Shown here: in pieces, positions 1 to 4,342 of the stretch
Layout of the letters: each line of letters starts with the position of its first letter
Numbering within the stretch: the stretch's first letter is position 1
Assembly (NCBI RefSeq): GCF_009828775.2
Contig: NZ_WTSY02000024.1
Span: forward strand, 1 to 33,354
DNA length: 33,354 nt
Direction of reading: 5' to 3'
Source: Erysipelothrix aquatica
GTDB lineage: Bacteria > Bacillota_I > Bacilli_A > Erysipelotrichales > Erysipelotrichaceae
Position numbers and translations under genes: made by a program
Notes under the pieces: generated by a model
Database searches by the model: none
What the model was told of the DNA's origin: nothing
What the model saw: only the letters and a program-made list of their open reading frames with translations

Positions 1-1582
1 CATTGATTGATACAAGCTCTATCGGTGGTTCAATTTTCGTATTTGTAATATCGAGTCCTGTTTGGGATGTTTGATAACCCGGTACCGCATCTTCTGTAAC
101 GGTATAGGTAATTTCTTTACCTTCATGGATTTTCGGAACATCCTTAAACGTATAAGTCCATACATCACCTGCTTTAGTCCAGATTGGTGTAACATTCGTT
201 ACTTCAGTACCGTCTGCATACAAGCGTACAATAATTGCTTCAGGGCGTAGTGGACTTTGACCATCAACCCATGTTTTGGTTCCATATATCGATATTAGCT
301 CTATCGGTGGTACAATTTTCTCGTTCTCCACCGTCAATTCGTAGACCCCGTTAGCAATCAGAAAATCATTCGGTATCGCAATCGAGCTTTCCGGAAGCAA
401 ATAACCTTCTGGCGCAATCGTTTCATCGATTGTATAATCATCCTTCAGTAAATCCGAAAAAGCCACGATGCCATCCGCGTCTGAAGTGCCTGTTGCTACG
501 ATTTGGTTCGTACGATCTCGAGTTAGTGTAAACGTTGCACCTTCAAGTGGATTACCTTGCATATCAACTTTAAGAAGTTTAATTCCATGGTTATACCCAT
601 TTGCACCACCACCGCCAGCATAATAAACCGTCTTTCGAATCTCTTCTTTAATGATGACCTCTGTATCCTCAAGTTTGGCGTAGTTTTCGAATTTTTCTTC
701 CGACACAGGCTGATAAGAAATCGCAGTGATGTATTGAACCATGTACTCATCCGAGTTCATAATCTTACCAAAATCAATACTAAAAGAGCGCTTGTCTTTT
801 CCCATATTTACCGTGAAGTCTGCCGTCACATCAACACCATTATCCATTCGCCAAATGCCTTGAGAATCCAGAATCCAATCTCCCTTTAAAATTTTGAACG
901 ATGTCAGATCGTACTCTAGACCGTCAGTGCGCAATTCATCATAGACAACAGCAGCATTAAAAGTCCCACCCGATGGATTAATCCGTAGAATGTTTTGAAT
1001 TTGAGTTCCCGCTTCGTTTAAGAACCAATTGTACTTTGAGAATTTTTCGTTTGGATCGTCGCTATTATGTTCGATATCAATCGTGCCTCCAGAAATAACC
1101 GTGCCGTTAATATCAATATCGATCTGAACCGTTTCACCTACTTGAGTTGTGGTCGTGTCGATTCGTGTAAGAAATTCCAATGATCCTGCAATATTCGAAT
1201 TCTTTTCGATATAATCTGTATAAACGAGCTCCGCAGTCTTTGTTAGTGGATTGACGGTGGCATACGCAACGATATTCCCAAGACTATCCTTCACCTCAAA
1301 TTTATTGTTTCCTTCGAATTTAAGGGCATCTGGCAAGGTGATGTTTGTGTAGTCACCTTTCTTTCCGATATTGTTAGGAATTTTAAAGTCAAGTGCAAAC
1401 TTAATAACTGTATATTGATTTGCTGAACCAATGACATCCCCTTTTTCATTGGTTACTTCTGCATTCAGTATTTCTAACGCAATTTCATTTCGATCAGCCG
1501 CCCCAATCGGTTGAATCACTGGTGCGAGTGACAGCATAATACTGACAGCAATCACCATAACAACACTTATTCTTTGTTTCAT
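1..1582 (-). CDS. Cna/SpaA-like collagen-binding surface adhesin, C-terminus outside window
   Basis: The minus-strand frame stays open from an ATG at 1582 to the left edge, giving about 527 residues and no stop. The start follows a strong ribosome binding site (GAAGGGGGA). Residues 1-28 form a signal peptide (basic MKQR, hydrophobic core, AA end). Residues about 30-315 resemble the Ig-like collagen-binding region of Cna-type adhesins. Residues about 330-422 are a prealbumin-like SpaA/Cna-B repeat (KLLKVDMQGNPLEGATF, then APEGYLL). Residues about 427-520 are a classical Cna-B module (GTKTWVDG, RPEAIIVRLYADG, YTVTEDAVPGY), and a further copy begins at the edge. Such proteins are normally exported and anchored to the wall through a C-terminal LPXTG, which would lie outside the window. 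The gene lies 107 bp downstream of a sigma-factor gene and has an ECF-type promoter. It could be a relative of known Erysipelothrix surface proteins, but the specific ligand is not shown. Confidence 0.88.
   Translation of the reverse strand, partial: MKQRISVVMVIAVSIMLSLAPVIQPIGAADRNEIALEILNAEVTNEKGDVIGSANQYTVIKFALDFKIPNNIGKKGDYTNITLPDALKFEGNNKFEVKDSLGNIVAYATVNPLTKTAELVYTDYIEKNSNIAGSLEFLTRIDTTTTQVGETVQIDIDINGTVISGGTIDIEHNSDDPNEKFSKYNWFLNEAGTQIQNILRINPSGGTFNAAVVYDELRTDGLEYDLTSFKILKGDWILDSQGIWRMDNGVDVTADFTVNMGKDKRSFSIDFGKIMNSDEYMVQYITAISYQPVSEEKFENYAKLEDTEVIIKEEIRKTVYYAGGGGANGYNHGIKLLKVDMQGNPLEGATFTLTRDRTNQIVATGTSDADGIVAFSDLLKDDYTIDETIAPEGYLLPESSIAIPNDFLIANGVYELTVENEKIVPPIELISIYGTKTWVDGQSPLRPEAIIVRLYADGTEVTNVTPIWTKAGDVWTYTFKDVPKIHEGKEITYTVTEDAVPGYQTSQTGLDITNTKIEPPIELVSIN
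2..313 (-). repeat. Tandem Cna-B repeat boundary (94-codon period)
   Basis: The coding sequence for PPIELISI (about 289-312) recurs as PPIELVSI at about 7-30, an offset of 282 bp or 94 codons. The shared stretch includes AGCTCTATCGGTGG on the plus strand at 297-310 and 15-28. This marks the junction of successive Cna-B modules, so at least one more module should continue to the left of the window. Confidence 0.7.
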
Positions 1583-1609
1583 GTTTTCAAGTCCCCCTTC
1601 TGATAGAAT

Positions 1610-1647: not shown

Positions 1648-1675
1648 ACAACGAATCAGTCGGCAAAAAGTTTCA
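1648..1675 (-). promoter_or_regulatory. Candidate ECF-sigma promoter of the adhesin gene
   Basis: On the minus strand TGAAAC (1675-1670) is followed by exactly 16 nt and CGTTGT (1653-1648). This matches the general ECF pattern (GAAAC -35, CGTC/CGTT -10, 16-17 nt spacer) much better than any sigma-A pattern in this gap. The predicted start of transcription is near 1641, giving a leader of about 60 nt before the adhesin ATG. An ECF-like sigma gene ends at 1690, immediately upstream. Confidence 0.7.
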
Positions 1676-1689
1676 AAAGTCAGAAAATA

Positions 1690-2697
1690 TTATTCCAGTC
1701 CGTTTACAAGATACTTCCGAGTTGCACTCACAGATGCGCTGACGTCATTTTGGTAGGTTATCGTGATTTCGACAAACGCATGATTACGAAGCTGTGTATT
1801 GGGCTTAATGTGTATCTGATTTTCGATTCCTTCACTATCAAAACAGGTGCCAGGAACAGCATATGCACGTCCATTCCCCGAGTGCCCAGTAAATGAAACA
1901 TCCAAACATGCGAAGAGTTCATCTGCACGACGATCCGCGACTTCAGAAACAGAGGGATTAATCGGAACATTCGTTACGTTCGAGGATAACTGAGTGGCTC
2001 CCGCAATAACCATTCCAATTCCAATTCCCCACACAATACGTTGTTTGAGGCGCTGCGACGAACCTTCTTGATACAACATTCGAATGAGAAGATATGAAGA
2101 AAAAATCGGAAAGACACCGAGAACCCTCGTGCCGTCTTTAGTTTTTTCATGAAGGATTTGCGCTAATTTCTTTTTGCCATAACGTAGATTACTCTTTACG
2201 GTATTTCGATTCAAATTCAATTCTTCGCCTATTTCCTTAATCGAAAGATCCTCAAAGTAAAATAGAACAATGCAAAGTTGCTGATCGTTTGGTAATTCTT
2301 GAATTGCATCATACAAAAGAGCATTCCGTTCTTGTAACATTGCTAGTTTGTCGGGATGTTCAAACCGGCTTTGATTCACGGAATCAAGACTTTCCGATTG
2401 CAACATTTCAATTGATTCCACAGATATATCTCGCGGTTTCTTTAGCGTATCAATGGCACAATTTCGCGCAATGGTCGCCACCCATGGACGGAAATTTTCA
2501 AGTGTTGGTGCTTCAAGTGTGTGTATGCGAGCAAAAGCACGCGCATACACATCTTGCACAATGTCATCCACATCATTTTGATTATTGGTAATTTTATAGA
2601 CGATACTGTATACCAAATTTACCGTTTCATCATACATTTCTGCGAAAAATTCATCGTATTTTGTTTGTTTCAAATCATTGCTTCTTGTGTTTTCCAT
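1690..2697 (-). CDS. ECF-type sigma-70 factor fused to a membrane anchor and extracytoplasmic tail
   Basis: The protein has 335 residues from the chosen ATG. Residues about 20-88 form sigma region 2 (DVDDIVQDVYARAF, then WVATIARNCAID). Residues about 126-182 form region 4 with its helix-turn-helix (LPNDQQLCIVLFYFEDLS, then NRNTVKSNLRYGKKKL). A hydrophobic stretch at 192-209 and a likely membrane segment at 221-237 follow. The last 98 or so residues look beta-rich and hold two cysteines (264, 285) that could form a disulfide outside the cell. An ordinary ECF factor ends near residue 180, so the tail is extra. The reading frame opens at 2754, but only the ATG at 2697 has a ribosome binding site (AGGGATAAAGG). 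The adjacent adhesin promoter fits an ECF factor. The tail domain is not one I recognise. No separate anti-sigma gene is visible. Confidence 0.85.
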   Translation of the reverse strand: MENTRSNDLKQTKYDEFFAEMYDETVNLVYSIVYKITNNQNDVDDIVQDVYARAFARIHTLEAPTLENFRPWVATIARNCAIDTLKKPRDISVESIEMLQSESLDSVNQSRFEHPDKLAMLQERNALLYDAIQELPNDQQLCIVLFYFEDLSIKEIGEELNLNRNTVKSNLRYGKKKLAQILHEKTKDGTRVLGVFPIFSSYLLIRMLYQEGSSQRLKQRIVWGIGIGMVIAGATQLSSNVTNVPINPSVSEVADRRADELFACLDVSFTGHSGNGRAYAVPGTCFDSEGIENQIHIKPNTQLRNHAFVEITITYQNDVSASVSATRKYLVNGLE

Positions 2698-2806: not shown

Positions 2807-2829
2807 AAAAAAAGCGCGTTAGCGCTTTT
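2807..2829 (-). terminator. Intrinsic terminator of the symporter gene
   Basis: A perfect 8-bp stem (AAAAGCGC/GCGCTTTT, 4-nt loop) overlaps the symporter stop codon and is followed on the minus strand by a run of seven T. It separates the symporter from the sigma-factor gene. Confidence 0.85.
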
Positions 2830-4204
2830 AAGATTCTATTGATGGAGTCGGAGTTGCTTGAGCCTCCCACCCTTTGTGAAAGAGTGTTTCATCAACCATG
2901 TCTAGTTCATGAGCAACACATAACGCACTCACACCATCATCCATGACGTTTGCAGCGGTAACAAGCATTTCTACCGGACGGTTAATTGCGAAAATAAAAC
3001 TATAAGCTGCAAGTGCTTCCGGATTAACATAACCCATCCCACTAATAATTGTGAAGAGCAAGACTGCACCTGCACCTGGAGCCGCAGGAGTACTTATCGA
3101 TCCAATTACAACAAGCGCAATAATTGAAATCATTTGAACAAGGCCCACTTCATATCCTCCTACCGACGCTATGAATAACGTTGCGACAATTTGCATAATG
3201 GCTGTTCCTGTCATATTAATTGCAGATGCAAGTGGCACGATGAACGAAGCAATCGCTTCATCAACACCTAAATCATGCATTACCGTTTCTTGCGTTAAGG
3301 GTAATGTTGCTGCAGACGACGATGTTGAAAAACCAAACGCAATTACCTTATACATTTTCTTTAGGAAAATAACCGGAGATAACCCTGTACGTACCAACAC
3401 AATTAATGGGAAGACTACAAACATCAAGACCAGTAAGGTTAAGGATGTCAATACCATGTAGACCATTGCTGGCTGCAGATAGTTTGTTCCATAGGATGCA
3501 AGCGTTCTAACTAATAATGCAAAGATTGCGAATGGTCCAAACTTAACTATGACGACTTCAAGTAGTTTCATCGTAATAATGTAAACTTCGTTGATAAATT
3601 TACGCAAGATATCGATTTGATCGCGTACACTTTGCATGACAACACCAACGATAAGTGCAAAGACGACTACGGCAATGATATTTCCGTTATTTGAAAGCAT
3701 CGATACAAAGTTATTGTTGAAGGCATTTAAGACAATCATCAAAGGATTATTGTCGTTAACCGTTGTTTGAGCAAGCTCAATCGATTCTAGATTCGATAAC
3801 TGGAACCAACCCATACTGTAACCAAAGTAACCAACTGTTGTTCCAAGAATAACTGCAACAGTAAGAAGTAAAACAAAATTTTTAATACCTTTTGTTGCCA
3901 GCTTGTTGAGTAAGCTTGACTCACGAATATGATCAATTGCTTTAATAATAGAAGTAAAGATTAGTGGAACCAAAACAATTTGTAAGAGTCTCATAAAGAT
4001 TTGACTTACTATGTAGAAGATTCCGACTGCATTTTTATTACCTGGCGCACTGATATCGGCAAACAACAATTTGTCTATCGATGTCCAGAGTGCTTGATGA
4101 TTGGTTGATATTAAATACTCACGCAGAAAAATGAACCCAATTCCAACAATTAGGCCCAATGCGAGGGTGATGAGTATCTTACGTGTAAAATGATTCTTAG
4201 CCAT
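2828..4204 (-). CDS. Dicarboxylate/amino-acid:cation symporter (DAACS family)
   Basis: A 458-residue polytopic membrane protein that should import an acidic amino acid, dicarboxylate or cystine together with Na+ or H+. The family signatures are clear: the serine-rich reentrant hairpin SSSAATLPLT near residue 297, the cation-site motif NMTGTAIMQI near 328 and the second hairpin STPAAPGAGAVLL near 374. About eight hydrophobic helices are visible. The length is close to TcyP-type cystine symporters as well as GltP/GltT, so the substrate is open. The frame extends upstream to 4276, but the ATG at 4204 has an excellent GGAGGT at 7-nt spacing. The promoter is about 130 nt further upstream, giving an unusually long leader. 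The gene is monocistronic, with its own promoter and terminator. Confidence 0.9.
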   Translation of the reverse strand: MAKNHFTRKILITLALGLIVGIGFIFLREYLISTNHQALWTSIDKLLFADISAPGNKNAVGIFYIVSQIFMRLLQIVLVPLIFTSIIKAIDHIRESSLLNKLATKGIKNFVLLLTVAVILGTTVGYFGYSMGWFQLSNLESIELAQTTVNDNNPLMIVLNAFNNNFVSMLSNNGNIIAVVVFALIVGVVMQSVRDQIDILRKFINEVYIITMKLLEVVIVKFGPFAIFALLVRTLASYGTNYLQPAMVYMVLTSLTLLVLMFVVFPLIVLVRTGLSPVIFLKKMYKVIAFGFSTSSSAATLPLTQETVMHDLGVDEAIASFIVPLASAINMTGTAIMQIVATLFIASVGGYEVGLVQMISIIALVVIGSISTPAAPGAGAVLLFTIISGMGYVNPEALAAYSFIFAINRPVEMLVTAANVMDDGVSALCVAHELDMVDETLFHKGWEAQATPTPSIES

Positions 4205-4213
4205 GAAATGTAC

Positions 4214-4271
4214 CTCCGTATGTATGATCTGACTTTTCGAATCAAATAAGAACGTGAAAAGATATACGGAA
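4214..4271 (-). promoter_or_regulatory. Leader pairing that could hide the symporter ribosome binding site
   Basis: In the transcript TTCCGTAT (4271-4264) can pair with ATACGGAG (4221-4214) over 8 bp with one G-U pair. The second arm contains the GGAG of the Shine-Dalgarno sequence. This is a minimal sign of translational control. I do not recognise a known riboswitch or T-box in the leader. Confidence 0.35.
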
Positions 4272-4342
4272 AACATGACTAGTTTCTTAGTGTGTATGTT
4301 TCCTTATAAACATCTCTGTGCTTACTTAAAGGATTCGTATGT

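Follow-up and report, generated by a model that had tools for sequence, protein, structure and literature searches.

The window, by which we mean the whole stretch of 33,354 nucleotides from Erysipelothrix aquatica analysed here, carries on its minus strand a gene for an ECF sigma factor with its own membrane anchor, a gene for a surface adhesin directly downstream and an ECF-type promoter in the gap between them. In the direction of transcription, the features of the locus are as follows.

2810–2829, minus strand: terminator-like hairpin behind the upstream transporter gene (sequence scan)
1690–2697, minus strand: ECF sigma factor with a C-terminal membrane anchor, 335 aa, ATG at 2697 (Pfam Sigma70_r2 and r4_2; AF2 model)
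2437–2637, minus strand: sigma region 2, residues 21–87 (Pfam)
2449–2451, minus strand: codon of Asp83 (W72+11), predicted reader of promoter base -11 (invariant W72 and D83; equivalence with sigmaH N92, PMC6411747)
2164–2319, minus strand: sigma region 4, residues 127–178, expected reader of the -35 (Pfam)
1984–2055, minus strand: transmembrane helix, residues 215–238 (AF2 secondary structure; hydrophobicity of the ortholog)
1693–1983, minus strand: extracytoplasmic ectodomain of about 97 aa, predicted to be five-stranded beta (AF2 model, pLDDT 55–77)
1648–1675, minus strand: ECF-type promoter of the adhesin, with -35 TGAAAC at 1670–1675, N16, -10 CGTTGT at 1648–1653, then ATTAAG
1592–1597, minus strand: ribosome-binding site of the adhesin, GGGGGA (sequence; E. 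anatis has AGGGGA)
2–1582, minus strand: adhesin with signal peptide, Ig-like head (Big_8), SpaA-type domain and Cna_B repeat(s), incomplete at the end of the contig (Pfam)

Upstream of the sigma gene lies a sodium:dicarboxylate symporter gene (2828–4276, minus strand) with a terminator at its end, which adjoins the pair in E. anatis too.

The tethered sigma factor, the promoter and the adhesin

The sigma protein contains sigma2 and sigma4 domains only, without sigma1 or sigma3, and its score against TIGR02937 (104.5 bits for a cut-off of 42.9) places it among the sigma70-ECF proteins. The same polypeptide continues into a C-terminal transmembrane helix and an outside domain, a fused and membrane-anchored plan that bears out the first-pass annotation of a membrane-tethered sigma gene. 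The AF2 model (mean pLDDT 75, pTM 0.37, domain packing uncertain) adds a predicted helix at residues 196–210, between sigma4 and the membrane. SigW, which the sigma domain resembles most, is the closest protein with a solved structure. A Foldseek search with the model returned sigma domains among the matches listed and no match to the ectodomain, for which no Pfam family was found at threshold either. The HxxxCxxC zinc-binding anti-sigma motif is absent between sigma4 and the membrane in the translated protein, and no separate anti-sigma gene adjoins the sigma gene, whose neighbours are the symporter and the adhesin. The E. anatis ortholog is 79% identical. Real relatives were met in E. anatis and E. 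inopinata only among the named genomes scanned, and a search of plasmids gave distant ECFs only, with no match at 80% coverage.

The contig ends at position 1, inside the adhesin gene; the complete ortholog in E. anatis counts 745 aa and carries an LPETG motif. Translation probably starts at ATG 1582, behind GGGGGA, rather than at the first in-frame ATG (1615). The adhesin has Cna_B stalk domains as repeats and a head similar to clumping-factor N2; its match to SdrG_C_C is weak. With an Ig-like head, a repeat stalk and an LPXTG anchor, seen in the E. anatis ortholog as the window copy is truncated, the protein has the build of the MSCRAMMs (Cna B region, ClfB N2). The protein had first been described as a collagen-type adhesin, a name that is only partly right and too specific, given these domains and the absence of the collagen-binding domain PF05737 at threshold.

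The gap between the sigma stop codon (1690–1692) and the adhesin start measures 107 bp. A motif search of the window identified in it TGAAACTTTTTGCCGACTGATTCGTTGT, an exact match at 1675–1648 on the minus strand, 65 nt 5' of the adhesin ATG at 1582. This motif combines an AAC-type -35 and a CGT-type -10 about 16–17 nt apart, as expected of promoters of ECF sigma factors. By chance 0.03 matches would be expected in the window, and 3 of 100 shuffles gave at least one. Over the whole genome (2.15 Mb, 96 contigs) matches to the 6+6 pattern are not uncommon, with five against two for the reversed control; four of the five fall within ORFs, on the opposite strand, and the sole intergenic copy is that at 1675–1648. 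A single target therefore fits better than the regulon of surface proteins that had been envisaged. The near-consensus AAAC-N16-CGTTGTATTA was found with zero mismatches only at the window site and its E. anatis ortholog. No matching site precedes the sigma gene itself, which would thus not be auto-amplified. The Bacillus ECFs of the SigW, SigM and SigX type also use a TGAAAC -35 and a CGT-type -10, but differ from the window sigma in being autoregulated, in having separate anti-sigmas and in controlling broad regulons.

The window and E. anatis share 80% identity over the sigma–adhesin gap as a whole. In this alignment CTGATTCGTTGTATTAAG, the -10 half, is unchanged, and TAAAAC stands at the -35 in E. 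anatis. Conservation in E. anatis was rejected as proof of a promoter, the identical run of 18 bases being not significant alone (P=0.20). In E. inopinata, TAAAAC-N17-CGTTATATTAG lies upstream of the tethered sigma gene.

Pairing of tethered sigmas with surface proteins in Erysipelotrichales

The genome containing the window encodes two tethered sigmas, each adjoining a surface protein, and no ECF of ordinary length was found in it. The second tethered sigma (587 aa) neighbours an LPNTG surface protein of 1644 aa. The conserved upstream block of this second Erysipelothrix pair ends with CGTCTATTTAATG; it has no clear AAC -35 and hence was not counted as a promoter. ORFs of about 50 aa, unrelated by eye, precede the sigma gene in the second pair (L036/L038) and in E. 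inopinata (L039). In E. inopinata the surface protein neighbouring the tethered sigma is divided between two ORFs of 371 and 1270 aa (L039:2417–7359), possibly by a frameshift.

The plan of a large surface protein encoded directly next to a tethered ECF sigma, in either gene order, recurs across Erysipelotrichales (Erysipelothrix, G053, G080, G081 and G128–G133). Sortase-anchored neighbours accompany 38 of 74 tethered sigmas, many of these loci being cut by edges, versus 0 of 20 control loci with ordinary ECFs; the lone 'canonical' ECF with an anchored neighbour (L147) is in fact a tethered sigma truncated at the locus edge. The anchored class provides the cleaner test, as the criterion of a large protein with a hydrophobic start also catches membrane transporters near ordinary ECFs (6/20 controls). 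In a sample of 393 genomes from the phylum, long tethered matches are confined to Erysipelotrichales, and the matches elsewhere in the class are short ECFs. The ectodomains vary by genus: beta in Erysipelothrix, with an Ig-like ending in G053, and a small helical domain in g46.

The pairing reaches its greatest extent in genus g46 (G128–G132), whose genomes of 2.1–2.8 Mb hold 22–28 sigma matches each, at most one per genome not being tethered. In G130, 25 of the 27 tethered sigmas are followed directly and on the same strand by a secreted protein; one of the two exceptions lies at a contig end and the other has its surface protein on the other side. The partners are mostly of 1.7–1.8 kaa and end in A-x-TGD anchors. 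Among the surface proteins, mean pairwise identity is 56–61% for stalk and anchor and 25% for the heads. The roughly 25 surface proteins of G130 (L099, L101, L160 and others), with a shared stalk and anchor bearing DGDGxPDxN-type repeats and with divergent heads, form a repertoire resembling antigen families.

Other members of the order present variations. The 4.3-Mb Erysipelotrichaceae genome G080 (L085–L091) gave 93 sigma candidates at first look; the eight that were scored each encode a tethered sigma of about 440 aa with a surface protein as neighbour, and the gaps are often only tens of bases long. Genus g45 is an exception, its tethered sigmas standing in tandem clusters with ectodomains of up to about 1.1 kaa and mostly without a sortase-anchored neighbour. 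These clusters (L105 and L106 in G085, L107–L109 in G127; ORFs of 560–1363 aa) are a different use of the tethered-sigma plan.

Promoter sequences and sigma region 2

Aligned gaps of g46 orthologs display conserved islands of the form GAAC-N16-xxNNC in which the -10 differs between pairs (GTGTC, GGAGC, GTGGC, TTGTC, ACGAC, GGTTC, GCATC, CGTTC and others). With an extended search that demanded C at -9 and left -11 free, a conserved xAAC-N16-xxNNC promoter was recovered in 19 of the 27 sigma-to-adhesin gaps of G130, the other 8 having no clear promoter. Upstream of the sigma genes themselves, their own -10 was found in 1 of 19 cases, the same as in controls, which sets them apart from typical autoregulated ECFs.

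Promoters for the covariation analysis were chosen automatically and blind to the sigma. Similarity between -10 elements tracks sigma region 2.3–2.4 (Mantel r=0.52, p=1e-4); for sigma4 no such relation is seen (r=-0.07, p=0.70). The sigma paralogs compared are not fully independent, but have a median identity of 32%. The best window of eight residues spans W+6 to W+13. Among the 19 promoters of the extended search, Asp or Asn at W+11 goes with G at -11 in nine of nine pairs and other residues in none of ten (Fisher p=1.1e-5), and Arg goes with T in five of five. W+11 has no association with positions -13 and -10 and a weak one with -12. In the complex of Mycobacterium tuberculosis sigmaH, the -11 pair is touched by W81+10 and +11 (I91, N92), and the flipped base is the one at -9 (PMC6411747). 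Since W+11 corresponds to N92, the rule found blindly falls on a known contact.

Asp occupies W+11 in the window sigma (Asp83), in E. anatis, in the paralog of the same genome and in E. inopinata. Judging from the sequence, Asp83 and CGTT would obey the rule if GTT represents -11/-10/-9 as for sigmaH, a fit that needs a shift of one base, the spacer being one shorter than in g46, where -9 is C. The exact motif in the gap, taken with the covariation of sigmas and promoters in relatives, supports the first proposal of an ECF promoter reading into the adhesin. The case for the window sigma being the one that uses it is strong.

A probable transmembrane switch, its alternatives and its known counterparts

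These observations lead us to consider it likely that the locus works as a one-target transmembrane switch, in which a tethered ECF sigma is released and drives the adjacent adhesin. The sigma's own C-terminal helix, in place of a separate anti-sigma, would keep it at the membrane, and a small sensor domain would lie outside. Sensing of a cue by the ectodomain would lead to the sigma part being cut free, most likely through site-1 and site-2 (M50) proteolysis, and the freed sigma would guide RNA polymerase to the adjacent downstream promoter, TGAAAC-N16-CGTT. The genome encodes two M50 site-2-type proteases and one sortase. Release by proteolysis is proposed with moderate confidence. The local switch suggested by the first-pass annotation gains support from the pairing throughout the order and from the covariation of W+11 with base -11; its starting point, a surface signal that releases the sigma, is plausible. 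A comparison of ectodomains with adhesins revealed no covariation between them, so direct sensing of the adhesin is without support.

Other explanations must be weighed against such a switch. The sigma might be active while tethered, or constitutively, with adhesin output set otherwise, as neither a cleavage site nor an anti-sigma domain was identified in it; but known fused ECF–membrane proteins, IutY among them, become active on being cut (PMC8999054) and M50 proteases are present in the genome. This reading is unlikely. We give still less credit to read-through, in which the adhesin would be expressed mainly from the promoter of the sigma gene on a shared transcript, the motif being weak or vestigial. 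It could draw on the lack of any terminator found between the two genes, on the G080 gaps, often too short for a promoter, and on the weaker -35 of E. anatis. However, the promoters in the G130 gaps are the conserved islands of these gaps and covary with the sigma, and simple read-through seldom goes with a gap of 107 bp that contains an ECF-type promoter.

A chance match, the adhesin being transcribed by another sigma, is the least credible reading and appears very improbable. What speaks for it is that the 6+6 pattern has five copies in the genome, against two for the reversed control; against it, the only intergenic and correctly oriented copy is the window site, the evidence from the whole family predicts a promoter in the sigma–adhesin gap, and no sigma-70-type promoter was found across 1560–2860.

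The separate parts of the proposed tethered switch, namely an ECF sigma, a fused membrane anchor and an MSCRAMM adhesin, are already known. ECFs with a fused C-terminal membrane anti-sigma include IutY (ECF243) and the groups ECF48, ECF52 and ECF53, such as SCO4117 (PMC8999054). Like the window sigma, they join sigma2–sigma4, a transmembrane helix and an outside domain in one protein, and the known ones are thought to be activated by proteolysis (PMC8999054). The window sigma differs in lacking the zinc-finger anti-sigma motif, which is defining on the ECF52 side; its family further differs in belonging to the Gram-positive Erysipelotrichales, in having sortase-type adhesins as partners and in having multiplied to 22–28 copies with separate promoters. 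The SigI/RsgI systems of Clostridium thermocellum are similar in their many paralogs per genome, outside sensor domains, distinct promoter specificities and surface-exposed targets (PMC10575876). SigI is nevertheless a different class of sigma with a separate anti-sigma, RsgI, and its specificity lies mainly in the -35 (PMC10575876), versus the -10 in the Erysipelotrichales tethered sigmas. The literature searched yielded no report of a dedicated pairing with surface proteins, of an expansion to 22–28 copies or of a paralog-specific -10 code; the tethered-sigma family may be listed in the current ECF classification.

A single genome offers about 20 natural sigma–promoter pairs and a rule linking one residue to one base, in agreement with the sigmaH structure; such a set would be useful for the design of insulated switches. 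More tentatively, and with the balance slightly against it, Erysipelotrichales might possess transmembrane relays in an expandable set, each insulated and serving one gene, with a separate tethered sigma and promoter code for every surface protein and its variable head. If so, a cell with 22–28 of them could pick, singly and by cue, the surface fibre to display. The pairing of tethered sigmas with surface proteins also suggests a way in which a group of bacteria associated with the gut and with animals may regulate large surface-protein families while using neither two-component systems nor separate anti-sigma factors.
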